DNA of 28,142 nt from a virus. Of this stretch, positions 3,316 to 28,054 are shown one piece after another. The translations under genes and the position numbers were made by a program. The notes under the pieces were generated by a model that was not told the origin of the DNA, did not search any database, and was given only the letters and a program-made list of their open reading frames with translations. The stretch is taken from positions 1-28,142 of the IMG/VR virus record IMGVR_UViG_3300031601_000022. One strand, 5' to 3'. Position 1 is the stretch's first letter. The number at the start of each line of letters is the position of its first letter.

Positions 3316-4014
3316 ATGGCCAGAATCACCATGCAGGCTGCCGAGCACACCGGGAACGCCCTGGATGCCGCCGCTGATCTTGTTGCCAAGAATGCCGCAT
3401 CCGCAGGCATCGACCCGAAGATTGCAGGAAAGTTCGCCTATCAGTGCGATCTCCTGAGCGACTACATGGCCAAGGCCGCTGGCATCAATCTCGCTAAGCT
3501 GGCCGCTTCCCGTATGGCAGATGAGGACCCCTCGCAGATCGGTGAGGAGAAGTCCGGCCCGAAGGAGCAGGAAGGCGACGAGCCTTTCATGTCTCACGAG
3601 TTCACGCAGCAGGAGAACCGGGAGCTTCGCGAGAAGGTCCAGAACAAGGAACTCGGTTCTGACAGGATCAGTCCTGAGCAGCAGACTCCCAGGCCCGGCG
3701 TGCAGGCAGCTCTGGCCAACGGTACGAAGCTCGCTGCACTCTTCCTCGACGTGAACTCGGCGGCCACTCGTTGTGCTTCCAGCGACAACGAGGACGTTAA
3801 GGCTCTTGGTAAGAAGTTGGCTGCCGCTGGCATCAGCGTGCTCGCCTTCCAGACCCGTCTGCTCGAAGGCAGTGAGTCCCATGAGCGTATCGCCATGGTG
3901 ACTCGTGCAGCCGCCCACGTCCTGCCGCATGTCGCAAAGGACGTTCCCGTGGCCGCTGCTGGGAAGCTGGCCCGTATGGTGGACATCTTTGCGGGAGTCA
4001 CTTCGGCGGTCTAA
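3316..4014 (+). CDS. Conserved phage protein of unknown function, helical
   Basis: This encodes 232 aa. The ATG at 3316 is chosen because GGAGG at 3303-3307 sits eight bases upstream; an in-frame GTG at 3271 has no comparable RBS. The N-terminus (MARITMQAAEHTGNALDAAA) and C-terminus are Ala-rich and helical. A charged linker near residues 70-125 contains GEEKSGPKEQEGDEPFMS. No enzymatic motif, signal peptide or membrane segment is visible. The stop codon TAA overlaps an ATG of the next gene, and the gene lies between the topoisomerase-like and ParB-like genes and just upstream of the head cassette. A minor virion or assembly role is plausible. I do not recognise a named family. Confidence 0.8.
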   Translation: MARITMQAAEHTGNALDAAADLVAKNAASAGIDPKIAGKFAYQCDLLSDYMAKAAGINLAKLAASRMADEDPSQIGEEKSGPKEQEGDEPFMSHEFTQQENRELREKVQNKELGSDRISPEQQTPRPGVQAALANGTKLAALFLDVNSAATRCASSDNEDVKALGKKLAAAGISVLAFQTRLLEGSESHERIAMVTRAAAHVLPHVAKDVPVAAAGKLARMVDIFAGVTSAV

Positions 4015-4040
4015 TGGGCCTCTTGCATAGGAGGTTTCCC

Positions 4041-5675
4041 GTGAGGACACCGCATCAAGCTACCGTGTACGTTGATTACCAGCAGAGGGCTCGTGAGTTC
4101 TCTGTCGGTGATATGGCATATCCTCTTGCCGGGGCGGCAACTGACGAGTCCCAAGCGGGTCGTGTGGTAGCCGTGTTTCCTGGCATCGGACAAGTGGATA
4201 TCGAGTTCCCTTGGGGCTCTGGCCGTTACCCAGTTGAAGACGTGCAACGAGTGACAGACATCGTTACTAAGGCTCCCGATCCCGACCACACCACCGTCCC
4301 TGGCGGGGTGGGCACAGTCGGTATTCCCGGTGGTCCCGTGGAGAAGAGGGCTGCTCTGGCCATCGACCGGGTGGCCAGTGCTTTCATCAAGTCTGCTGTC
4401 TACTGGGCAGGCAAGGACCGAAGTTACCGGGCAACCAGGGCGGAGGCCGAATCCAACAAGTTCAGGTGTCCAAGGTGTCGCGTAGAGAATGGGTCCGACC
4501 CCATCTACCTTCGTCCCGTTAACTACAAGCGGGAAGATGGCCAAAGCCACCAGCTCTTCGGTTGTCCCGCCTGCATGTTCCTCATTAAGAGGGACCGGAT
4601 TCAAGGTCTTCAACAAGACCTCGGTGACGATGGCCCACAGGACGGTACACAGAGCAACTGGGATGGTGTGATGGAACAGGGTTTCAACTCTGTTCGTAAC
4701 GTGCAGGGCCATTCGAGAACAGCAGACAAGGGCATTCACCAGAAGCAGTATGAGAGGGCTGGGCAGCTCTCACGGGTGGACCCGTCCATCGCTAATGTTA
4801 TGGTCGAGTCGGGCTCAAGGGAAGACAAGATTTCGGTCTCCAAGACTTCGATGTCGGCTTCTAGTTTGAAGCCGTCTCAAACGACCATGGTGTTGCCGAA
4901 GTCCTTGGGTATGGCTCTGCTCATGCTCAAGAAGAACCAGATTGGCGGAGACCTTGGAGCCCTGGTTTCTTCCGACAAGTACATCATGGACGGCCATCAT
5001 CGTTGGTCCGCTGCTGTTCTTGCCGGTGGTTCTTCAGCTCAGGTTGGTGGCTACGTCGCCAAGCTGCCCGGTGAGAAACTTGTCCGCGTGCTGAACCTGC
5101 TCACCAAGGGCGAGTTCAAAGTCGGTCAGGGCAATGCCGGGTCGGGGAACCTTGGGGACTACACATCCGCCAAGGTCCGAAAGATGATGACGGAGTTCAC
5201 CGAGAAGGGCATTCCTGGCAAGTTCCCGTGGTCGGCAGATGATGTCAAATCCACGTTGGAGAACGCTTTTGGATCGGTGGATGACGGGATCAAGCAGATT
5301 TCGGACAACGCCAAGTTGGTCTCCAAGAAGGTTCCCTCATGGGCACCTCCTCGCTCCGACATGCCGGTCATCGATCCAGCTCAGGTCCCCAAGGCGGTCA
5401 AGAAACTTCAGGACGGGGATGTTGATTGGCACAAGCCCTACAAGCGGGCCGCCACCCGAGATTGGGATGATGATTCTATCACCAACTGGCATCACCAGAT
5501 TCTACGGGCGGTGCGGGAGTTGATGCCCATCAGAACGAAGGGTGAAGAAGCTGCCGCTCGCTTGAAGGAACTGAAGGTAGAGTGGAACGACGTGACCCGG
5601 GAAATCAAGAAGAGGGGCCTGAAGGTTTACGGCCCATCCTCTCTCCGGTTTAGCAGTGTGGTGGAGGGGGGTTGA
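4041..5675 (+). CDS. Zinc-ribbon + ParB-like domain protein (544 aa)
   Basis: The start is GTG 4041, with AGGAGG at 4029-4034; an ATG at 4014 overlapping the previous stop is also possible. The N-terminal 75 residues look like a small beta-rich domain. A zinc ribbon follows (C143-P-R-C146, C175-P-A-C178). From about residue 240 comes a ParB/sulfiredoxin-like domain with the hallmark DGHHRW at 317-322. ParB-type domains bind or cut DNA, or hydrolyse nucleotides, in different families; which applies here is unknown. Residues of about 235-470 align closely with the minus-strand gene at 27242-28054, including SLKPSQTTMVL, GGDLGAL and VPSWAP, so the two are paralogs. This copy has the extra N-terminal part and a C-terminal charged helical tail. 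There is no ParA neighbour, so a partition role is unlikely; a packaged DNA-acting protein is an inference from context. Confidence 0.8.
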   Translation: MRTPHQATVYVDYQQRAREFSVGDMAYPLAGAATDESQAGRVVAVFPGIGQVDIEFPWGSGRYPVEDVQRVTDIVTKAPDPDHTTVPGGVGTVGIPGGPVEKRAALAIDRVASAFIKSAVYWAGKDRSYRATRAEAESNKFRCPRCRVENGSDPIYLRPVNYKREDGQSHQLFGCPACMFLIKRDRIQGLQQDLGDDGPQDGTQSNWDGVMEQGFNSVRNVQGHSRTADKGIHQKQYERAGQLSRVDPSIANVMVESGSREDKISVSKTSMSASSLKPSQTTMVLPKSLGMALLMLKKNQIGGDLGALVSSDKYIMDGHHRWSAAVLAGGSSAQVGGYVAKLPGEKLVRVLNLLTKGEFKVGQGNAGSGNLGDYTSAKVRKMMTEFTEKGIPGKFPWSADDVKSTLENAFGSVDDGIKQISDNAKLVSKKVPSWAPPRSDMPVIDPAQVPKAVKKLQDGDVDWHKPYKRAATRDWDDDSITNWHHQILRAVRELMPIRTKGEEAAARLKELKVEWNDVTREIKKRGLKVYGPSSLRFSSVVEGG

Positions 5676-5676
5676 C

Positions 5677-7152
5677 ATGGCGATGGAACGGTTTGCCAGG
5701 GCTGCCATCACTACCCCGCACGTCGGGAACAAGGGTTGGTCAAAGATCCGTAAGGCTGCTCAGGCCGATGCTACGGCAGAGGTCAGCGAGAACCTGATCG
5801 ACCGGGCTTCGACTATCTTTGGCAATCCGTTCAACCCGTCCGAGTACCTGCTCACCCACGCGACCATCGTAGCGTCAGTGGATACGATCACGCCCCCCAA
5901 CACCAAGCTCGGCAAGGTGATGGAGGGTGGCTTCCGGGTTAACCGGAAGTTCGGGAACTACCGGATCAAGCTCGGCACCGAAAAGTACATCAACAACAAC
6001 AACGACTGCTGGGACAGGGACGTGCTCCTCAAGAGCTTCCGAACCTTCATCGGTGGTCACAACTTCGTTGAGCACGTTCAGATCGAAGAACTGTCGAAGG
6101 GTCGCATCATCGACGCCGTGGCCCGAGATATAGGGGACTCCGTGTATGTGGATATCCTCATCGCGACTGACCGGAAGCACACCGATCTGGTGGCTGCTAT
6201 CGAGTCGGGCAAGATGAGCACGATGTCCATGGGCTGCACGGTTGATGGAACCATCTGCACCAAGTGCGGGCACTGGGCCGCCGACGACACCGAGATGTGC
6301 GACCACATCAAGTACGAGAAGGGCAACACCTTCTTCGACGATCAGGGCCGCCAGCACAAGGTAGCTGAGTTGTGTGGCCACGACAGCATCGACCCGACTG
6401 GCGGTGTGCAGTTCATCGAAGGTTCTTGGGTCGGCACTCCGGCATTCACGGGGGCTGTCCTACGGAACGTCATTGCTTTGCATGGTACGGATGGGCTAGG
6501 TAAGGCGGCTTCCGCCATGCTCCAGACTCCACCTGACCAGTGGACTAAGGGTCAACGTCGTAAGGCGGCATCCCTCGCCTTCGGCAGTAATGACCAGTTC
6601 ATGGCCGGGTGGGATGATGATGCTGATGATGATGAGGGTGAGTCTGAGGCTCCGACTGAAGAGAAGCCCAAAGACCCCTTCGAGGATGTCGAGAACGAGC
6701 TGACCGACCACATGCGTGATCGGGTCAAGAAGAAGCTCAAGAAGGACATGGATCAGAAGGACCAGGACGAAGCCCTGAGCCCCGAAGATTCGTCCAGTGC
6801 TCCGAACGACAACCTCGTGAAGCAGAGCCAGATTTATGGCTCCACTGTCGCATTCATTTGCCGGACGGCATCTAGCGATGTTGATCTGGTAGATAAGGTG
6901 GCCCAACTTGATGCCATGTATGGCCATGCTGCTTCGGTGTCAATGTACCGAGCGGCTGTCCGTCTCGGTTCCTTTACGGGCTACGGTTCAATCAATCTGT
7001 TTTCTCGGGCTTGTCAGGCGACCCTCGGTCGTAAGCCCATTTTAGCCGAGGCAAAGACTTTGATCAGGCTCGGCAAGCTCATCTCGCGGCGAGGCCAGGA
7101 TCGCAGTGAGACTCAAGAACACTCCCTGGCAGTCGCCAAGGCGAAGGAGTAA
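5677..7152 (+). CDS. Prohead (head maturation) protease with long C-terminal extension
   Basis: The start is ATG 5677, with GGAGG at 5663-5667. The first 275 residues have the layout of T4 gp21-type / herpesvirus-assemblin-like prohead proteases. A histidine region GGHNFVEH (H128, H133) is followed about 50 residues later by the serine motif MSTMSMGC (S181/S184). A Cys/His cluster comes next (GC187, CTKCG, MCDH) and is likely a zinc site. Such enzymes cut scaffold and capsid N-termini inside the prohead. The C-terminal 200 residues start with a very acidic segment (DDDADDDEGESE), continue as a charged helix, and end in a Ser/Ala-rich domain; this part may act as scaffold or be removed on maturation. 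The gene directly precedes the acidic scaffold candidate, the usual protease-scaffold-capsid order. Confidence 0.85.
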   Translation: MAMERFARAAITTPHVGNKGWSKIRKAAQADATAEVSENLIDRASTIFGNPFNPSEYLLTHATIVASVDTITPPNTKLGKVMEGGFRVNRKFGNYRIKLGTEKYINNNNDCWDRDVLLKSFRTFIGGHNFVEHVQIEELSKGRIIDAVARDIGDSVYVDILIATDRKHTDLVAAIESGKMSTMSMGCTVDGTICTKCGHWAADDTEMCDHIKYEKGNTFFDDQGRQHKVAELCGHDSIDPTGGVQFIEGSWVGTPAFTGAVLRNVIALHGTDGLGKAASAMLQTPPDQWTKGQRRKAASLAFGSNDQFMAGWDDDADDDEGESEAPTEEKPKDPFEDVENELTDHMRDRVKKKLKKDMDQKDQDEALSPEDSSSAPNDNLVKQSQIYGSTVAFICRTASSDVDLVDKVAQLDAMYGHAASVSMYRAAVRLGSFTGYGSINLFSRACQATLGRKPILAEAKTLIRLGKLISRRGQDRSETQEHSLAVAKAKE

Positions 7153-7157
7153 ATGCG

Positions 7158-8744
7158 ATGAGTAAGCGTCAACGCATGACATGGGCGGCCCTCCGTGGGG
7201 CGGCTGCTGCACCAGCAATTCCCGGTTACGGTGTCGAAGACCAGGATCACCCCGCGCACACCCAGGAAGATCCGGGTGCTCACGATTATGAGAACGGTGA
7301 CACCTCATCGTGGGCCGAGGATGTCCACCCCGGTCCTCTCACGAATTCCGGCCCGCCTGCGATCCCCGGCTACGGCGTCGAAGACCAGGATCACCCTGCC
7401 CACCAGCGGCAGGCCAGCATCATGGAGCTGGTGCGACGCAAGTCCGCCAAGGCTCTCGTTCTCGCCAAGGCCACCCTCGGTAAGACGGCTTCCTGGGACA
7501 ACATCGAAGAGCAGGCTTATGGTTACATGAGCATGGACGACAGTGCCCTTGATGCTTCCATCGAGCGTCTGGGCGGCGACTTCCTCGGTTTCGAGGATGA
7601 GCTGGACGACGACGATGGTATGGACATGCTGGGCATGGACGACCTCGACGACGACTTCGATGACGACGATGGCATGGACATGCTGGGCATGGACGACCTC
7701 GACGACGACTTCGATGACGACGATGGTATGGACATGCTGGGCATGGACGACCTCGATGACGACATCGACGACAACCCCATGATGGCTCGCCTCATGGCGA
7801 TGGAGACCGAGGTCCACGCCCTGCGTGCCGCCGCTGGTCAGAACGACCCCGATGGCAAGACCCTTGGGACCAACGGCAAGTCCGAGGACGAAGAAAAGAA
7901 GGAAGAGGACGCCGCCAACAAGGAAGCAGCAATGCCCTTCATGGCGATGTTCGACACCTACGACAGTGACGGCGACGGCTTCGTCACCGCCGAGGACTGG
8001 GGCGGTCCCCGCGCCATGTTCGCCTCCATCGACACCGACGGTGATGGCATCATCGCCCGCCACGAGGTCATGGCGGGCTGTGAGAAGCTGCCCGAAGGCA
8101 AGATGCGGGACAACTGCGAGAAGAAGAAGGAAGAAGACGGCGGCGACGAGAAGGCCGAGAAGAAGGCGTTCGGTGAGTTCGCTGACGACCTCGACGACCT
8201 TGACGACTTCGACGACGACGAGATGGATATGCTTCAGGCCATGGACATGGACATGGACATGGACATGGACATGGATGATGACGATGCCATGCTCGGTTGC
8301 GGCAGCGACGTGATGGCGTCCAAGAAGTCCGACGAGGACACCGACGCCGACGAGGACAAGGACAAGGACGAGGACAAGGACGACGACGACGACGAAGAGG
8401 AGAAGGACGACAAGGGTTCTGACAAGGAAGCCTCCGGTGACACTCAGTTCTTCGCGACCGGCTTCGACCCCATGGGTCTGGGCGACGGTACTGAGATGTC
8501 CGACATGGACGATGCGGCTTTGCGTAGCGTCTTCGGTTCCGACGACGAAGATGAAGACGAAGACAAGGGTTCCGACAAGGAAGCCAGCCTCGCCGCCATC
8601 CTCAATCCGCAGCCCCGAAAGGCGAGCACGGGCGTCAAGTCCATCGGCAAGGTCGCCAAGCAGGCTTCGAGCGGTGGTAGCGAGATCAACGAGCTGTCTA
8701 GCCTCTGGGCCTCTGACCCGGACGTGAGCGGTTCTTTCTCCTGA
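7158..8744 (+). CDS. Probable scaffold/core protein: hyperacidic, EF-hands, tandem repeats
   Basis: This encodes 528 aa, extraordinarily rich in Asp, Glu and Met. The order is: a 16-residue motif PAIPGYGVEDQDHPAH present twice (residues 19-34 and 67-82); three perfect or near-perfect 18-residue repeats DDDDGMDMLGMDDLDDDF (150-203); two EF-hand loops, D269-S-D-G-D-G...D280 and the canonical D292-T-D-G-D-G-I-I-A-R-H-E303; an (MD)n run near 362-373; and further D/E/K stretches. The C-terminal 50 residues are less charged. Position between protease and capsid genes, plus high charge, fit a head scaffold degraded by the protease. The EF-hands predict calcium binding. The start ATG 7158 follows GGAG at 7146-7149. 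It could instead be a retained internal core protein. The scaffold role is inferred from synteny, not from homology. Confidence 0.75.
   Translation: MSKRQRMTWAALRGAAAAPAIPGYGVEDQDHPAHTQEDPGAHDYENGDTSSWAEDVHPGPLTNSGPPAIPGYGVEDQDHPAHQRQASIMELVRRKSAKALVLAKATLGKTASWDNIEEQAYGYMSMDDSALDASIERLGGDFLGFEDELDDDDGMDMLGMDDLDDDFDDDDGMDMLGMDDLDDDFDDDDGMDMLGMDDLDDDIDDNPMMARLMAMETEVHALRAAAGQNDPDGKTLGTNGKSEDEEKKEEDAANKEAAMPFMAMFDTYDSDGDGFVTAEDWGGPRAMFASIDTDGDGIIARHEVMAGCEKLPEGKMRDNCEKKKEEDGGDEKAEKKAFGEFADDLDDLDDFDDDEMDMLQAMDMDMDMDMDMDDDDAMLGCGSDVMASKKSDEDTDADEDKDKDEDKDDDDDEEEKDDKGSDKEASGDTQFFATGFDPMGLGDGTEMSDMDDAALRSVFGSDDEDEDEDKGSDKEASLAAILNPQPRKASTGVKSIGKVAKQASSGGSEINELSSLWASDPDVSGSFS
7605..7766 (+). repeat. 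Three 54-bp in-frame tandem repeats
   Basis: Units lie at 7605-7658, 7659-7712 and 7713-7766. They differ by only a few bases, mostly synonymous (ggt/ggc, gac/gat), and by one F-to-I change at the end of unit 3. Near-identity at the DNA level means recent expansion or ongoing homogenisation. Copy number may vary between related phages. Confidence 0.95.
8241..8270 (+). repeat. (ATGGAC)5 hexanucleotide microsatellite
   Basis: Five exact ATGGAC units are followed by an imperfect sixth, ATGGAT. They encode alternating Met-Asp in the acidic scaffold candidate. The run is in frame, so slippage would change protein length without breaking the frame. Confidence 0.95.
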
Positions 8745-8756
8745 GCCCATCCCCCG

Positions 8757-8786
8757 ACCCAAACCCCTTCCAATAGGGGTTTGGGT
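8757..8786 (+). terminator. Hairpin after the scaffold gene, possible weak terminator
   Basis: A perfect 11-bp stem (8757-8767 with 8776-8786) encloses an 8-base loop, 12 bases after the scaffold stop. No U-tract follows directly; a T-rich patch lies about 25 bases further on. It may be an attenuator or an mRNA-end stabiliser rather than a full terminator. The motif CAATAGGGGTTT in it recurs at 10551-10562 after the capsid gene. Confidence 0.5.
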
Positions 8787-8960
8787 ACTACCCCTGCCAG
8801 TATCTTCTCTCCCTTTTTCAATATCTATTTGATAACGCTCACATAATGAGTGAAGGGCCTGCCGGATCCATTCTGGTGACGGGGGCCGGGCCGAACTGAC
8901 CTACGGGTGAGGGCGGTCGCCAGAACCCAACCCCTGTGAACAGGGAGTAGGAGGACTCAA

Positions 8961-9656
8961 ATGCCTCTGCTCGGACAGGCAAGTGGCGGATGGACGGAAT
9001 CCAGCAGCGCGTTGCGCATCCTGAATCTCGGGATTGCCAACTCCATCGGCGTGCTGACGGATGACTCGTTCACCCAGACCAACCCCCCCATCGTGACCGG
9101 CGCAACGACGGTCACAGCCCAGGTCAACCAGACGCTTTCGGGCGTTCTGAGTGGCTCGGTCTGTTTCGCTCGTGGCGACGCGGGCGGCGGGACCAACTTC
9201 ATCGGCGGCCCGGCTGCCCTTGGCACGAACAACGTCAACATTCTCGGAGTCTTCATCAACTCCGCGAATGGCAATGCGTTTGAGAACACGCCCGGTACGG
9301 CGTCCGGCAAGGGGCCTTACGTCTCCGGCCAGGGCACGTTCGGCAACACGCTGTTCGAGGACAAGGTGCTGACGGCTGGTAACCAGGGCAACGCCCTGAC
9401 GGCGTACAATGTCGGTCAGGCCCTCTTCGCTAGTCACAACGGTTACCTGACCAACATGATCGACGCTGACTACGCTGCGTCCTCCGTGGAGCAGTTGTGG
9501 GAGAACGCAATTGACTGCACGGCTCTCTTCAGCGCCATCGGTGTCGCACCTGTCGGCACACTGACGGGTCAGATGAATCTTCCTACTGTCATCGGCATCG
9601 TCAAGATGGTCCCCGATGCAACCCAGGGCGATCTGGTCTACGACCAGCGCATCTGA
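8961..9656 (+). CDS. Probable head decoration / capsid-stabilising protein
   Basis: This encodes 231 aa. The start ATG 8961 has GGAGG at 8950-8954. The sequence is rich in Gly, Ala, Thr and Asn with beta-strand character, few charged residues and no transmembrane segment (GKGPYVSGQGTFGNTLFED; ending GIVKMVPDATQGDLVYDQRI). It sits 12 bases upstream of the major capsid gene and shares a strong RBS pattern with it. Small beta-rich proteins encoded immediately before the capsid protein are typically decoration or cement proteins, so the role is inferred from position and composition. No catalytic motif is seen. A minor structural protein is the main alternative. Confidence 0.7.
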   Translation: MPLLGQASGGWTESSSALRILNLGIANSIGVLTDDSFTQTNPPIVTGATTVTAQVNQTLSGVLSGSVCFARGDAGGGTNFIGGPAALGTNNVNILGVFINSANGNAFENTPGTASGKGPYVSGQGTFGNTLFEDKVLTAGNQGNALTAYNVGQALFASHNGYLTNMIDADYAASSVEQLWENAIDCTALFSAIGVAPVGTLTGQMNLPTVIGIVKMVPDATQGDLVYDQRI

Positions 9657-9668
9657 CGGAGTACCACG

Positions 9669-10541
9669 ATGAGTGCCACCAACGCTGTGAAGCAGAAGAT
9701 CATCGGAGAGTACATTCGTACTCCGCAGGGCCGCGCCAAGCTCGCTGCCTCGATGACCCAGCCCCTCCGTACTCGGCGTGACTACGCTGCGGTCGGCCGC
9801 AAGACCTTCTTGGTCGAGCAGCTTCCCGACGGCGCGCTGCCGATCTACGACAAGGACCCCGATGTGACGGCTTACGTCGTGGGTGAGGAAGGTCAGAACA
9901 TCCTCGCCGTGACCAAGCCCAGGCGTGTGATCTTCCCGCTGTTCGAGATCGCCTCGAACCCCGAGATCCCGCTGACCCAGATCAAGGAGCGTCGCTTCGA
10001 CCTGATCGAGCGTTCCCAGGATCTCGGTCGCGTCCAGATCCAGGCCGCTGAAGACGAGCGCGTCTTCGCCGTCCTCGACTCCGTCGCCACCGCTGGTTTC
10101 GACTCCCTGCCGGGTCAGCTCAACGCCGACATCCCCGTCATCGCCCCGATCTCCGGTGCGGTGCTGGCCGATGCGTTCGCCCTGATCGAGCGTCACGACC
10201 TCCGCGTCGCCCGTATCTACATGAACGCCCGTGACTACGCGGACATCCGCAAGTTCGGTCGCGACATCCTCGACATCGAGTCCCAGGCTACCCTGCTGAA
10301 GACTGGTCTCCAGGGCGTCATCTACGGCGCGAACGTCGTCACCAGCCGCCTCGTGCCCAACGGCACGGTGTACCTCTGTTGCGAACCTGAAATGTTTGGC
10401 CGCATCCCGGTGCGTACCGAACTGACGGTTCTCTCCGCAGACGATCCCAAGCGTCGCATGATCGGCTTCTCGATCTTCGAGAACCTGGGTCTCGGAGCGT
10501 ACAACCCACGCGGTCTCGCCCGGCTCACCGTCACCCGTTAA
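9669..10541 (+). CDS. Major capsid protein (HK97-fold type)
   Basis: This encodes 290 aa. The start ATG 9669 has GGAG at 9658-9661. The layout resembles HK97-fold capsid proteins of large phages. A helical basic N-arm (KQKIIGEYIRTPQGRAKLA) leads into an E-loop-like region with conserved GALPIYDKDPDVTAYVV. A long spine helix follows (DLIERSQDLGRVQIQAAEDE), then a P/A-domain (NARDYADIRKFGRDILDI), and the protein ends with GLGAYNPRGLARLTV. It is the last gene before a strong terminator and has the even, GC-ending codon use of a highly expressed gene. No delta domain separate from the N-arm is obvious, which fits scaffold being supplied by the upstream acidic gene. Confidence is high on the role and lower on the exact family. 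Confidence 0.87.
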   Translation: MSATNAVKQKIIGEYIRTPQGRAKLAASMTQPLRTRRDYAAVGRKTFLVEQLPDGALPIYDKDPDVTAYVVGEEGQNILAVTKPRRVIFPLFEIASNPEIPLTQIKERRFDLIERSQDLGRVQIQAAEDERVFAVLDSVATAGFDSLPGQLNADIPVIAPISGAVLADAFALIERHDLRVARIYMNARDYADIRKFGRDILDIESQATLLKTGLQGVIYGANVVTSRLVPNGTVYLCCEPEMFGRIPVRTELTVLSADDPKRRMIGFSIFENLGLGAYNPRGLARLTVTR

Positions 10542-10578: not shown

Positions 10579-10608
10579 AAAAAGCCTCCGTGAAAACGGG
10601 GGCTTTTT
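10579..10608 (+). terminator. Intrinsic terminator after the capsid gene
   Basis: A 12-bp stem (10579-10590 with 10597-10608) has one G-U pair and a 6-base loop. Its 3' arm ends in TTTTT. The A-run/T-run design makes it able to work in both directions. It closes the head operon. Confidence 0.88.
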
Positions 10609-10661
10609 CTATGCCTCAATCCGGCCAATACAGCGGTCACATCAACACACCTAAACGGTGC

Positions 10662-10690
10662 TTGACAGTGTGGTATGGGGGCTGTATATC
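10662..10690 (+). promoter_or_regulatory. Sigma70-type promoter for the endonuclease-methyltransferase gene
   Basis: A perfect -35 TTGACA (10662-10667), a 17-base spacer and a -10 TATATC (10685-10690) lie just upstream of the RBS AGGAGG at 10697-10702. The 5' leader would be only about a dozen bases. This is the clearest promoter in the window and it serves a single gene. Confidence 0.85.
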
Positions 10691-10708
10691 TGTGTTAGGA
10701 GGTGGGTT

Positions 10709-12667
10709 ATGGTGGACGGACTGGATGCGGGTGTGCTTCGTCGTTTGTATCTGGATGAGGACCGGACAGAGACTCAGATTGCGGAAATGTTTGGTACCTA
10801 TCAGGTGAAGGTGGGCCGTCTTCGTCGTAAGTGGGGTATCCCTACCAGAACCAAAACAGAGCGGGTTTCCGGCGTCCTTCCGAATCCAACATCTCAGCAA
10901 GCAGGCATCCTTGTGGGTTCTCTTCTGGGAGACGGGTGGATGAGGGCAACGAGTGACCTCGCGGCGGGATTTGGTGAGGGTCACTGTTTGAAGCAGAGGG
11001 CGTATACGGATTGGAAGGCTGACATCATGGAACCCTTCACCTCTTCTCGCCATTCGGGGGTCAAGGTGGACCATCAGACAGGGCGTACCTTCCACAGTTG
11101 GTCTTTTTCCACAACGTGTTGTTCCCAACTGCGGCCTTTCTACGATGCGTTCTACCCACCTCCATCACGAAAACGGATGTTCCCATCTAACCTTCCTGAT
11201 CTGATGACGCCATTCATCCTGGCCGTTTGGTACATGGATGACGGGAATCTCGGGACGGGATCCCACCCGCGTATTGCTTTTGGATTGGATGACCTGAGCT
11301 TGAAACGCGGGTTGTCGGCTCTACGGGCTCTTGGGCTGAAGCCCAAGGTTTATGGGGAGGGTTCCAATCGGGCTATCCACTTCCCCAAGCAGAGGATGAA
11401 GTTCCGTGCGCTCATTGAACCCCATGTCATCCCCTGCATGGCTTACAAGATCCCGTCAGAGACGGAGCGTATGCGGGGAGACCGGAACGCCCGAGATTTG
11501 ACGGCACCAAAAGCGAAGACTTTGTATGACGGGGGCATGTCGGTGGCTCAGATTTCCAAGGCTTTCGGAGTGGGGGATTCGACCGTCAAGAGGAGGCTTC
11601 AGGCGGCGGGTACCACGATGCGGAAGTCTGGCCCCAAGAAGAATGGGCATCAAGTGGAGAGTGCGAGCATTCTTCTTAGCGCCCCAGAGCCTTTGTCCGC
11701 TGATGATGTTTTCCGGGTGCTGCGGGGAACCCCTTTTCCTGTGGCCCCTCCCTACAACCATGACGACGCTTTGAAGGCTTTTCAGAAGGTGCGGTATGCC
11801 CCCATGAACACCGATGGTGGTCTTGTGGGTCCTGTTCGTTCAGTCGGATCAGCTTGTTGTTCGTCTTTTTTCCCTAACCGTTATTCTGCCCGTTCACGGT
11901 GGTCGAAGCACTCTGCTTTTGAGGCATGGCATGACGAAAAGGAGTTGCGGAAGGCTATCCGGTTCCAGCTCAAGGTTGGTGACCCTGTAGTACCTGCCAG
12001 GGTGCTCAAGGCCATCACCATGAACTGTCGAACTCCATCGGTGTTCCGCCCTACGGTGGCGCGGCTCATTTACGAGACCTTCTGCAAGCCTGGGGATCGG
12101 GTGTGGGATCCATGTTCCGGGTATGGGGGGCGATTGATGGGGGCTGCGGCGGTTGGGGTGCAGTATGTCGGGACTGACGTGGAGCTTGCGACTGTTGAGG
12201 GGAACCGGAGGCTGGCCGAGGCACTGGGGTATTCTTGTGAGATGCACTGCATCCCAGCCCAAGACTTTGTGCCTCCCCCTGTGCAACTCGTGTTCACGTC
12301 ACCACCCTATTTTGACCAAGAACAATACGCGGGCGGTCAGCAGTCATGGCGGGATTTTGAGACTTTCGGGGCTTGGGTAGAGGGGTTTCTGCGGCCTTTG
12401 GTGCGGAAGGCTGCGTCAGCTCTCACGGAAGGGGGGCACCTTATCCTGAACGTGGCGGACATTCGGAATCGCAAAGGGGGGGTGTTCCCCCTGGTTGCCC
12501 GTACTCAAGAAGTAGCTCTTGAAGAAGGATTCCATTTGGAAGCCCGGTGGGAGATGAAACTCCCTAACTTGAACCGCAAGAAGACGGAGCCGATCCTGGT
12601 CTTTGGCCTCGACAATCAGCAGGCGACTTCAAGAATGGGGGGTTCATCACCCTCGGAAACCGGGTAA
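10709..12667 (+). CDS. LAGLIDADG homing endonuclease-DNA methyltransferase fusion
   Basis: This encodes 652 aa. The start ATG 10709 is set by AGGAGG six bases upstream; an in-frame ATG at 10658 would overlap the promoter. Order of parts: an N-terminal helix-turn-helix (TETQIAEMFGTYQVKVGRLR); two LAGLIDADG motifs, GILVGSLLGDG (66-76) and FILAVWYMDDG (169-179), each with the active-site acidic residue; a second HTH (SVAQISKAFGVGDSTVKRRL, about 273-292); then an AdoMet methyltransferase with motif I DPCSGYGG (467-474) and motif IV TSPPY (530-534). SPPY motifs mark N4-cytosine or N6-adenine amino-methyltransferases. Motif I precedes IV, so it is not the beta order. LAGLIDADG enzymes cut long sites to spread their own gene, and a linked methylase could protect DNA. 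Promoter and terminator on both sides make it a self-contained insert. An intein is unlikely because no splice junctions are seen. Confidence 0.85.
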   Translation: MVDGLDAGVLRRLYLDEDRTETQIAEMFGTYQVKVGRLRRKWGIPTRTKTERVSGVLPNPTSQQAGILVGSLLGDGWMRATSDLAAGFGEGHCLKQRAYTDWKADIMEPFTSSRHSGVKVDHQTGRTFHSWSFSTTCCSQLRPFYDAFYPPPSRKRMFPSNLPDLMTPFILAVWYMDDGNLGTGSHPRIAFGLDDLSLKRGLSALRALGLKPKVYGEGSNRAIHFPKQRMKFRALIEPHVIPCMAYKIPSETERMRGDRNARDLTAPKAKTLYDGGMSVAQISKAFGVGDSTVKRRLQAAGTTMRKSGPKKNGHQVESASILLSAPEPLSADDVFRVLRGTPFPVAPPYNHDDALKAFQKVRYAPMNTDGGLVGPVRSVGSACCSSFFPNRYSARSRWSKHSAFEAWHDEKELRKAIRFQLKVGDPVVPARVLKAITMNCRTPSVFRPTVARLIYETFCKPGDRVWDPCSGYGGRLMGAAAVGVQYVGTDVELATVEGNRRLAEALGYSCEMHCIPAQDFVPPPVQLVFTSPPYFDQEQYAGGQQSWRDFETFGAWVEGFLRPLVRKAASALTEGGHLILNVADIRNRKGGVFPLVARTQEVALEEGFHLEARWEMKLPNLNRKKTEPILVFGLDNQQATSRMGGSSPSETG

Positions 12668-12760
12668 TCTAGGTAGATGAATTCAGAGGTTGTAGATGAA
12701 GATCGGGATGGATCAGGAGGTACTGGCTCTGGGAATCGAGAGACTAGATTTCAGCCGACT

Positions 12761-12806
12761 ACAAACCCACCGTAGGCTCCCCTTGGGGATGCTCGGTGGG
12801 TTTTGT
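12761..12806 (+). terminator. Intrinsic terminator downstream of the fusion gene
   Basis: A 12-bp outer stem (12761-12772 with 12794-12806, one bulged T) encloses a smaller CCCC/GGGG inner hairpin. The 3' arm ends in GGGTTTTGT. It lies about 95 bases after the stop codon and isolates the insert from the genes that follow. Confidence 0.8.
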
Positions 12807-12904: not shown

Positions 12905-13141
12905 ATGACCATCCGAGACCACCATGTGAACTGTGAGGTATTCGTACCCCCCGAATTGGCGTTTGGCGTGTTCGCTAATGCCTTCCGAGTGGTCGATACG
13001 GATGATGGTCGTTGTCGGTTGGAGTTCCTGGTTTACTCCGAGACAGGTCATCAGGCGAAAGTGGTCAGCAAGGTGCCTGTTCGCAAGTCTTTCTTGCCGG
13101 TGATCAGAGACCGCATCCTGACCTGTTTGAAAACCCTGTGA
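12905..13141 (+). CDS. Small conserved phage protein, paralog of the gene at 25793
   Basis: This encodes 78 aa. The start ATG 12905 follows GGAG at 12895-12898. The pattern NAFRV...LEFLVYS...AKVVSKVPVRKSFLPVIRDRI aligns through its length with the 94-aa protein at 25793-26077 (NAIRI...IDFIHYS...AEVVRRVRVHEDTLVSIKDRL). The shape is two or three beta strands and a C-terminal helix. There is no enzymatic motif. It is the first gene after the endonuclease insert. It is probably a small virion or assembly protein; the function is unknown. Confidence 0.78.
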   Translation: MTIRDHHVNCEVFVPPELAFGVFANAFRVVDTDDGRCRLEFLVYSETGHQAKVVSKVPVRKSFLPVIRDRILTCLKTL

Positions 13142-24366: not shown

Positions 24367-24400
24367 ACAAACCCCGTTGCCTACCGGCTGCGGGGTTTGT
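24367..24400 (+). terminator. Intrinsic terminator after the C1-C3 genes
   Basis: A perfect 10-bp stem (24367-24376 with 24391-24400) has a 14-base loop, and the 3' arm CGGGGTTTGT is followed by T-containing sequence. Its flank ACAAACCC resembles the terminator at 12761. It separates the structural genes from the HNH gene. Confidence 0.8.
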
Positions 24401-24502
24401 TGCATCCACATCCTGCATCGCTCATTCGCCTATACCCCCGCAAGGGTAGAACGTAAGACCTCTCTCTCTTCGGAGCTGGGATGGAAGATGCAGGAGAACA
24501 AG

Positions 24503-25141
24503 ATGGCGGTCCAACAGAAGATTTGCTCCAAATGTGGGGGTCATTTCCCTTTGGAGGATTTTACCAAGGACGCCTCTACTAGAGATGGCAGAAGGGGGCG
24601 GTGCCGATCATGTACCCGTGCTGCTGCCAATCGCCAGACTGCGGCTCGGAGGTCATCAGGAAAATGCACTCAGTGTGGTCTTCCACACGCGGGTCAGGGT
24701 GCTTGCTGTCCTCGGTGTTTGGAGAGGCACAAGGATGCCTATGTTAATCGGGACCCTGAAATTTGCTGGCTTTGTCGCAGCCCCGACTTGATTACGGCTT
24801 TGTACTGTGAATCTTGCTGGTTGAAAGAAGCATCTAAGCGGTTTTTGGGATCTAGGGCGAGGGGTCCTGAACTCAAAGAACTTCTTGTGCAACAAGGTTT
24901 CCGTTGTGCTTTGACCGGGGTGCCTTTGCGTTTTGGGCAGAACGCAAGTGTAGACCACATCATTCCGAGATCCCAGGGCGGGGCGGATACATTAGAAAAC
25001 TACCGTTGGGTCCACACCCGCATCAATGGGCTGCGGGGTGACTTGGCGGACCCCGAATTGTATGACCTGTGCCTTCGGGTTGTAGAGATTTCGGGTAAAC
25101 AATCCTGTGGGCGCGATCCCACATGGTTAGGAGATGTATGA
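24503..25141 (+). CDS. HNH homing-type endonuclease with multiple zinc knuckles
   Basis: This encodes 212 aa. The ATG at 24503 follows AGGAG at 24492-24496; longer in-frame starts would run into the terminator. Six CxxC pairs (CSKC, CRSC, CTQC, CPRC, CWLC, CESC) fill the first 120 residues and should form zinc ribbons that grip DNA. The C-terminal nuclease has VDHIIPRSQGG (D151, H152), N166 in TLENYRW and H171 in VHTRIN, the His-Asn-His metal site that cuts DNA. Codon use is more A/T-ending than in the neighbouring structural genes, which suggests recent acquisition. It is probably a free-standing homing endonuclease inserted at a transcription-unit border. The end overlaps the next gene's start. 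Confidence 0.85.
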   Translation: MAVQQKICSKCGGHFPLEDFTKDASTRDGRRGRCRSCTRAAANRQTAARRSSGKCTQCGLPHAGQGACCPRCLERHKDAYVNRDPEICWLCRSPDLITALYCESCWLKEASKRFLGSRARGPELKELLVQQGFRCALTGVPLRFGQNASVDHIIPRSQGGADTLENYRWVHTRINGLRGDLADPELYDLCLRVVEISGKQSCGRDPTWLGDV

Positions 25142-25792: not shown

Positions 25793-26077
25793 GTGAGCGA
25801 GAAACGTATCTTGTGTCCGGTGTTGGATAATCTTCCTGTTCCGACGGTGGAGGTCAACGCCATTCGTATCCTGCCGGAGACGGGTCAGACCTTTTTCATC
25901 GACTTCATTCACTACTCGGCATCGAATCAGCGGGCAGAAGTGGTCCGGCGGGTGCGGGTCCACGAGGACACCTTGGTTTCCATCAAGGACAGGCTTTCGG
26001 ATGATCTGGTAGAGGTCCCTGTCAAGACGGGGCAGCCTCTTTTCTGGTGTACCAACAAGTCGGGTTTGGTGAACTGA
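25793..26077 (+). CDS. Small conserved phage protein, paralog of the gene at 12905
   Basis: This encodes 94 aa from GTG 25793, preceded by a G-rich SD (GGGGGTGA, 25781-25788). No other start is available in frame after the previous stop. The core NAIRI...FFIDFIHYS...AEVVRRVRVHEDTLVSIKDRL matches the 78-aa protein at 12905. The C-terminal 25 residues (VPVKTGQPLFWCTNKSG) are specific to this copy. The stop overlaps the next start (TGATG). Confidence 0.75.
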   Translation: MSEKRILCPVLDNLPVPTVEVNAIRILPETGQTFFIDFIHYSASNQRAEVVRRVRVHEDTLVSIKDRLSDDLVEVPVKTGQPLFWCTNKSGLVN

Positions 26078-27241: not shown

Positions 27242-28054
27242 CTATTGGGTCTTCCTCAGTAGGGGAACGAGGTATTTTCGCATCTCTGGGTTCTGGTTGG
27301 CCAGCCGAATGACAGATTCTCTGAGGGTCGCTTCCTTGTAGGGGGCTCTCCAGTCAACCTTGGCATCATTGAGGGTTTTGGCAGCCTCGGGTACTTGCTT
27401 CCTATGGATCACGGGCATCTGCTTGCGGTCGGGAGCCCATGACGGCACCGTTTTGTTCACGTTCTTCACGGCGTCCGACATCTTGGTGATGCCGTCTTCG
27501 ACAGAGCCCCACTTGTCCTTTAGGGCTTTCTTCACGGAGCTGGCCGCAAGGGGGTACTTACCTGTGATTCCCTTATCCACGAATTTTTCAAGGATGGTTC
27601 TGACTTTTTTGGGGGTGAAGTCCGAGAGATTCCCCTTGCCAGGATTCCCATTGCGGACCCCAAAGACGCCCTTGCTGACGATGTTCAGCACCCGGAGAAG
27701 GTCTGGTCCCTTGATGTCTGCTTTGTAGCCACCGACCTCGCCCCCACCTGCAAGAATAGTCCCCGCCCAACGATGGTGGCCGTCGAGGATGTGGTTGTCC
27801 GATGAGATCAGGGCACCCAGGTCTCCGCCGACTTTGCCTTTGTTGAGCATATGGACGGCTATTTCAACAGCATCACCCAAAACCATGGTGGTCTGAGAGG
27901 GTTTGAGACTCTTGGCGTCTAGGCTGACCTTGGACACGTTGACTTTGTCCTCGGATGTTCCTGAGTCCACAATCATCTTGGCGATGGCGGGGTCTACATT
28001 GTCGAGTTTGTCGGCCTTCTCGAATTGTTCCTCGAACTTTTTCTTACCGGCCAT
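27242..28054 (-). CDS. ParB-like domain protein, paralog of the gene at 4041
   Basis: This encodes 270 aa, the only convincing minus-strand gene. The start ATG at 28054 has GGAGG (minus strand, 28060-28064). The ParB/sulfiredoxin-like motif DGHHRW is at residues 91-96, with SLKPSQTTMVLG, GGDLGALISSD and VPSWAPDRKQMPVI in the same order as in the protein at 4041. It lacks that protein's beta domain and zinc ribbon. The end has RLANQNPEMRKYLVPLLRK, a basic helical tail. There is no HTH as in chromosomal ParB and no ParA nearby, so DNA processing or a virion role is more likely than partition. Its stop codon abuts the stop of the plus-strand gene. Confidence 0.82.
   Translation of the reverse strand: MAGKKKFEEQFEKADKLDNVDPAIAKMIVDSGTSEDKVNVSKVSLDAKSLKPSQTTMVLGDAVEIAVHMLNKGKVGGDLGALISSDNHILDGHHRWAGTILAGGGEVGGYKADIKGPDLLRVLNIVSKGVFGVRNGNPGKGNLSDFTPKKVRTILEKFVDKGITGKYPLAASSVKKALKDKWGSVEDGITKMSDAVKNVNKTVPSWAPDRKQMPVIHRKQVPEAAKTLNDAKVDWRAPYKEATLRESVIRLANQNPEMRKYLVPLLRKTQ

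Follow-up and report, generated by a model that had tools for sequence, protein, structure and literature searches.

The capsid locus and the fusion gene

The window, by which we mean the whole analysed stretch of 28,142 nucleotides (IMGVR_UViG_3300031601_000022), carries an uninterrupted major capsid protein gene followed on the same strand by a gene in which an HTH, a LAGLIDADG nuclease, a second HTH and a putative amino-methyltransferase are joined in a single reading frame (Table 1). The open reading frame, its domains, the promoter and the hairpins all lie where an earlier note on this DNA had placed them.

Table 1. Features of the capsid-downstream locus, in positions of the window.
Feature	Position	Strand	Basis or remark
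Major capsid protein gene	9669..10541	+	phrog_2522 major head protein, 9.4e-48
Intrinsic terminator of the capsid gene	10579..10608	+	-19.9 kcal/mol, z -6.4
Sigma70-like promoter, TTGACA-17-TATATC	10662..10690	+	10/12 matches
Shine-Dalgarno sequence, AGGAGGT	10697..10703	+	5 bases 5' of ATG, read from sequence
HTH-LAGLIDADG-HTH-methyltransferase fusion gene, 652 aa	10709..12667 (stop included)	+	ATG at 10709
N-terminal HTH, residues ~7-43	10727..10837	+	AF2 helices; weak PHROG matches
LAGLIDADG nuclease, I-SceI-like, residues 46-249	10844..11455	+	Pfam and structure match
LAGLIDADG motif 1, GSLLGDG (Asp75)	10916..10936	+	
LAGLIDADG motif 2, WYMDDG (Asp177/Asp178)	11228..11245	+	
Second HTH, residues 268-298	11510..11602	+	PF02796 HTH_7, 7e-6
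Predicted amino-methyltransferase with its own N-terminal region, residues 320-634	11666..12610	+	PF01555
SAM motif I, DPCSGYGGR	12107..12133	+	
Catalytic motif IV, TSPPY	12296..12310	+	
Terminator-like hairpin closing the unit	12761..12806	+	-26 kcal/mol, z -3.8

The earlier note had described the gene as a moron-like unit between two terminators. The hairpins are real, neither being listed by a simple terminator scan; the upstream one is the capsid gene's own terminator, and the downstream one is probably part of the backbone and outside the insert, because it recurs (86% match over 51 bp) at 7935-7981 of L174, a relative without the element. The promoter of the window is significant against shuffles of the gap (p = 0.005 for its score of 10/12), and a promoter with p<0.05 is found at only 9 of 33 fused loci. 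A terminator-like hairpin is present in the gap between the capsid and fusion genes at 23 of these 33.

Domains and fold of the fusion protein

The nuclease half matches the Pfam family LAGLIDADG_2 (2e-21, residues 67-230), and its residues 46-249 superpose on I-SceI (1r7m) with a Z score of 23.6 and an rmsd of 2.6 over 200 amino acids, i.e. it has the pseudo-symmetric LAGLIDADG fold. The AlphaFold (AF2) model, made with 38 homologues, has a mean pLDDT of 93.

The C-terminal half matches Pfam N6_N4_Mtase (PF01555; 2.4e-8, residues 525-622). A structure search with residues 345-637 retrieves SAM-dependent amino-methyltransferases of the Trm11/TrmN-type fold (Z 19), with tRNA amino-methyltransferases ranking first; the profile of this half compared with the PDB prefers 2zie and the DNA cytosine-N4 methyltransferases 8s9m and 8s9n. 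Both the SAM motif I and the motif IV (S/D/N)PP(Y/F) of N4C/N6A amino-methyltransferases are present, as DPCSGYGGR and TSPPY. From these matches the C-terminal half is predicted to be an N4/N6 amino-methyltransferase, its DNA substrate being uncertain since tRNA methylases are among the structural neighbours. A separate target-recognition domain was not identified in the fusion protein.

The family of fused homologues

The six relatives of a first scan were raised by a profile scan and a scan with the capsid protein, and after removal of duplicates both halves are found in one frame in 37 non-redundant ORFs, on phage contigs of a few kb to 485 kb. The fusion is not, therefore, the accident of a single genome which the earlier note had named as a refuting outcome. 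Neither is the second such outcome seen, a family-wide substitution of LAGLIDADG or SPPY residues: Asp75, Asp177 and Asp178 are kept in all 37 fused ORFs, each having the two LAGLIDADG motifs with their acidic residues, and so are Asp467 and Arg475 of the methylase motif I. DPCxGxGGR is conserved in nearly all, as is (T/S)SPPY in nearly all that reach that point. The profile scan used the LAGLIDADG stretch as search pattern and is biased for motif 2; fused ORFs recovered by a search that used only the capsid protein, and not a nuclease motif, have intact motifs, motif 2 included. The dN/dS ratio is 0.04-0.2 for both halves in most pairs with unsaturated synonymous change, and both halves are thus under purifying selection in most measurable pairs. 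A search of plasmids gave partial, distant matches to single domains only.

In L034 (LR745208, a 485-kb phage; 5965-9654, the same as L008) a 1230 amino acid ORF has two tandem HTH-LAGLIDADG units followed by the methylase and zinc fingers. The first LAGLIDADG unit is degenerate (GCLLGNG, WFLDRG) and has lost the acidic residues; the second is intact.

Position and patchy presence

Every fused gene lies immediately 3' of the major capsid gene and on the same strand, usually after a gap of about 190 bases, so that the capsid gene is the constant upstream neighbour; the capsid proteins of these loci are 65-99% identical to that of the window. One seeming exception, the 411-kb phage from which L044 comes, was resolved when its fused gene too was located behind the capsid gene. 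In a non-redundant set of close relatives selected only by their capsid protein, the fused gene is present in 14; a LAGLIDADG gene stands alone in 4 and is truncated by the contig end in another 4; 30 have neither, and 6 are uninformative. L171 and L174 are syntenic with the window on both sides and lack the gene; in L183 the next backbone gene follows about 200 bases 3' of the capsid gene. The comparison of this interval proposed in the earlier note thus gives a fixed site, patchy presence and relatives without the gene. This is the arrangement of an intergenic free-standing homing gene, i.e. a gene of its own beside a conserved gene, present or absent among close relatives.

The interval is a site of variable cargo and a nuclease hotspot. 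Tandem LAGLIDADG genes are found there in L004, L023, L024 and L025, and in some relatives LAGLIDADG genes lie between pieces of the capsid gene itself. In one such locus, L053, there is a weak, sub-threshold match to a group I intron, the only RNA family match in the window and its relatives, none reaching the Rfam gathering threshold. The major capsid gene is likely the homing locus. L174 has, between the capsid terminator and the second hairpin (6980-7980), about 1 kb without a convincing gene, which is GC-rich and possibly a structured RNA; an Rfam match was not found for it.

Separate movement of the two halves

Fused and nuclease-only members are intermingled in the LAGLIDADG tree, which takes at least 12 changes, at least 6 of them on starred branches. 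In the methylase tree the type A and type B methylases, and likewise the window clade and L089, L169, L178 and L179, form one starred clade (96*), and their nuclease halves fall into separate clades. The trees indicate that the nuclease half is exchanged and that the two halves move separately.

A difference in the methylase half is seen at close range between L041 and L062-L066, which are identical over 4304 bases through the capsid and nuclease genes and then diverge, the methylase half being present in L041 and absent from the others. This difference may be a strain-level polymorphism or an assembly branch, the latter because the sequences of L063 and L066 stop just where the two versions part. 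As to the claim of a self-contained element, a fusion with its own transcription signals does exist in the window; nuclease-only relatives at the same site, and the variant L062-L066 without the methylase half, speak against full self-sufficiency.

The methylase family is also found with other nucleases. In the giant phages L024 and L025 the genes behind the capsid gene are nuclease-only, and the methylase is found at another place, as a fusion with an HTH/zinc-finger/Vsr-like nuclease. In L245 and L246 it is fused to a nuclease of probable Vsr/I-Bth0305I-like fold. Foldseek alone gave no identification for this nuclease (best E 0.08); VIA-align (model pLDDT 73.5) gave, among its best matches, I-Bth0305I (Z 9.2) and Vsr (Z 9.0) together with mitoribosomal chains (9.1), and a match to PHROG 9084 'homing endonuclease' (2e-8) agrees with the structural matches.

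A second, divergent capsid clade

Of 80 methylase loci, two are preceded by a capsid gene with 35% identity to that of the window, and in both a nuclease gene separates capsid and methylase (LAGLIDADG in L312, PD-(D/E)XK-like in L265). A scan with this clade-2 capsid protein gave 64 non-redundant loci, each with at least 1.5 kb downstream, and in 14 of them the same methylase family is present at the site. In all 14 a nuclease lies between capsid and methylase or is fused to the methylase: thirteen are detected by profile, and the fourteenth (L414) has an HNH gene. The types represented are LAGLIDADG_2, LAGLIDADG_3, PD-(D/E)XK-like, Vsr-like and HNH. Sixteen of the 29 nuclease-positive loci have no methylase. 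The association of methylase and nuclease gives a Fisher p of 1e-4; its strength is overestimated to some degree, since three of the nuclease profiles (PD, LAG_3 and Vsr) derive from loci that carry the methylase. Nuclease types change at the capsid site while the methylase family stays; a nuclease alone is often found there, a methylase alone was never seen.

Fusion has also recurred. In L370 and L390 the methylase is joined in one chain to LAGLIDADG_3; the parts of L390 recur in L394 as separate genes (71% and 66% identity). A further LAGLIDADG_3-methylase fusion, in L069, stands behind a capsid gene split around a LAGLIDADG gene.

In L419, L423 and L400/L059 the clade-2 capsid gene is split near codon 54/55; the pieces flank a LAGLIDADG gene in L419 and L059/L400, and none was detected in L423. 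L312 has a Cas5-family gene (PF09704, 8e-7) and a large ORF 3' of its LAGLIDADG and methylase genes (4718-7337), and CRISPR-type genes may share the cargo spot downstream of the capsid gene.

Relation to known systems

With I-SceI and the other LAGLIDADG_2 (PF03161) homing endonucleases the window protein has the fold and both acidic motifs in common. These relatives are found in introns and in or beside phage genes; the window protein differs in being flanked by HTHs, fused to a methylase and outside any intron or intein. An intein was rejected, there being no Hint match and the LAGLIDADG unit being N-terminal and outside the methylase, as was a group I intron-encoded nuclease, the capsid gene being intact and the window giving no Rfam match at the gathering threshold.

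The T4 SegF/SegG and Mob genes are free-standing intergenic homing endonucleases, each a gene of its own beside a conserved phage gene and patchy in distribution. They have no methylase, and their own genomes are thought to be resistant through differences in the target sequence. The fusion gene resembles them in position and patchiness and differs in carrying the methylase.

Single-chain restriction-modification enzymes of types IIC and IIG likewise have a nuclease and an amino-methyltransferase in one chain; their nuclease is not LAGLIDADG and their genomic position is different. An enzyme of this type with a known restriction fold (PD-(D/E)XK, HNH, GIY-YIG, PLD) was rejected, the nuclease half being LAGLIDADG. 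The stand-alone phage amino-methyltransferases of phrog_12517 (Vibrio phage 2.058.O, NVP2058O_092) are 31% identical to the C-terminal half and have no attached nuclease. The I-Bth0305I/Vsr-fold (EDxHD) homing nucleases, probably represented in L245 and L246, have a fold unrelated to LAGLIDADG and are found at another structural-gene position.

No published report of a terminal LAGLIDADG-methylase fusion was found in the open-access papers searched. The nearest published case is gp79 of Mycobacterium phage Taj and its cluster F relatives, nine sequences with a 139 amino acid LAGLIDADG_1 insert inside a methylase (PMC9957025). Like the window protein it holds LAGLIDADG and a DNA methylase in one phage polypeptide; unlike it, the LAGLIDADG part is inserted within an unrelated methylase and is not terminal, and the two proteins show no similarity by BLASTP. 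The statement in the earlier note that LAGLIDADG enzymes normally have no linked methylase has to be qualified accordingly. The authors of that study considered a restriction-modification role unlikely, LAGLIDADG enzymes being undescribed in such systems (PMC9957025).

A proposed homing cassette that may protect its own genome

The reading to which we incline, with somewhat more confidence than doubt, is a free-standing homing cassette behind the capsid gene, in which the fused methylase protects the resident DNA from the nuclease. The I-SceI-like half, guided by its LAGLIDADG contacts and the HTHs, would cut a long target in or beside the capsid gene of a phage that infects the same cell and has no cassette, and recombinational repair would then copy the cassette into the cut genome. 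The methylase would mark the same or an overlapping target, leaving resident and newly converted genomes uncut, and fusion would put both activities on one DNA-binding chain. Such a mark would be of use since the strong conservation of the capsid gene makes escape by mutation of the target difficult. Cutting, DNA methylation, the shared site, protection and homing itself are all predicted here from sequences and models. Homing at the capsid locus is suggested by the constant site, the patchy presence, the nuclease hotspot and the capsid genes split around related nucleases; a working link between nuclease and methylase is suggested by a constant methylase beside changing nucleases and by repeated fusion, and protection at the same site would be the simplest form of such a link. 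Two further comparisons gave no signal. Fourfold divergence is alike in the capsid gene and the gene upstream (0.60 vs 0.63), i.e. there is no sign of co-conversion, a test which an old transfer would escape, and the search for a specially conserved capsid stretch in carriers, as expected of a target, gave small dips only (permutation p 0.22). Counting against the cassette is that the methylase family is common as a stand-alone phage gene and may have another role; the many nuclease-positive loci that lack a methylase (16 of 29 in clade 2) and the variant L062-L066 weigh on the same side.

The strongest competing explanation, which we regard as unlikely but serious, is that the nuclease spreads alone and that the methylase, a separate gene useful against host restriction, hitchhikes and sometimes fuses, the two having unrelated sites. 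The wide occurrence of the methylase as a stand-alone gene, the frequency of nuclease-only cassettes at the capsid site and the strain variant without the methylase half all agree with it. A nuclease often alone and a methylase never seen alone at the site fits both protection and cargo, which keeps our confidence in protection modest and this alternative in play. It is weakened by the finding that a single methylase family is paired at the site with four or more types of nuclease, and by in-frame fusions to several nuclease lineages; plain cargo needs no fusion, and other kinds of gene should then be equally frequent.

A further alternative is restriction-modification between phages, in which the LAGLIDADG part would exclude rivals, methylation would be the mark of self and homing would not be the main benefit. 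The same anatomy is predicted, and exchange of the nuclease beside a constant methylase resembles such loci. The constant position by one conserved gene, the tandem nucleases and the related nucleases inside capsid genes point instead to homing; LAGLIDADG targets are long, moreover, and few sites would be met in a foreign genome. We judge this improbable. Still less credible, and in our view very improbable, is that the LAGLIDADG part does no more than bind DNA, steering the methylase to one place for regulation: non-cutting LAGLIDADG proteins exist, e.g. those of the WhiA type, and the first unit of L034 has lost its acidic residues, but its second unit is intact and both catalytic Asp are kept in all 37 fused ORFs. 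An assembly artefact or single-genome accident, conceivable for a metagenomic contig, is refuted by dozens of independent contigs, including a 485-kb GenBank record.

More tentatively, and at slightly less than an even chance, we propose a class of self-marking homing elements, in which a nuclease (LAGLIDADG, Vsr-like, PD-(D/E)XK-like or HNH) is joined by a dedicated methylase for the same site. Homing genes normally avoid cutting their own genome because the target is disrupted or has diverged. A dedicated methylase would solve the problem differently, in cases where the target gene is not free to change, and would let the element colonise a locus too conserved for mutational escape. If true, the logic of restriction-modification would be joined to homing in what would be the first LAGLIDADG nuclease with a cognate methylase, and a possible route between homing genes and restriction-modification systems would become visible. 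The heavy nuclease traffic behind the capsid genes of large phages would be explained, and biotechnology would be supplied with pairs of nuclease and methylase for long targets. As the pairing is repeated in two capsid clades, the hypothesis is directly testable.

Other genes of the window

Some other regions of the window deserve mention. The gene at 24377-25141 is HNH/endonuclease VII-like (phrog_1035, 5e-24) and is possibly a further mobile nuclease in the structural region. Repeated blocks rich in D and EF-hand-like segments (DTDGDG) mark the very acidic protein encoded at 7158-8744, upstream of the capsid genes. A similar DGHHRW-type stretch is present on opposite strands in 4014-5675 and 27242-28054 and may be a duplicated domain. 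The two small proteins encoded at 12905-13141 and 25793-26077 are apparent paralogues, both matching the same regions of L032 and L089.
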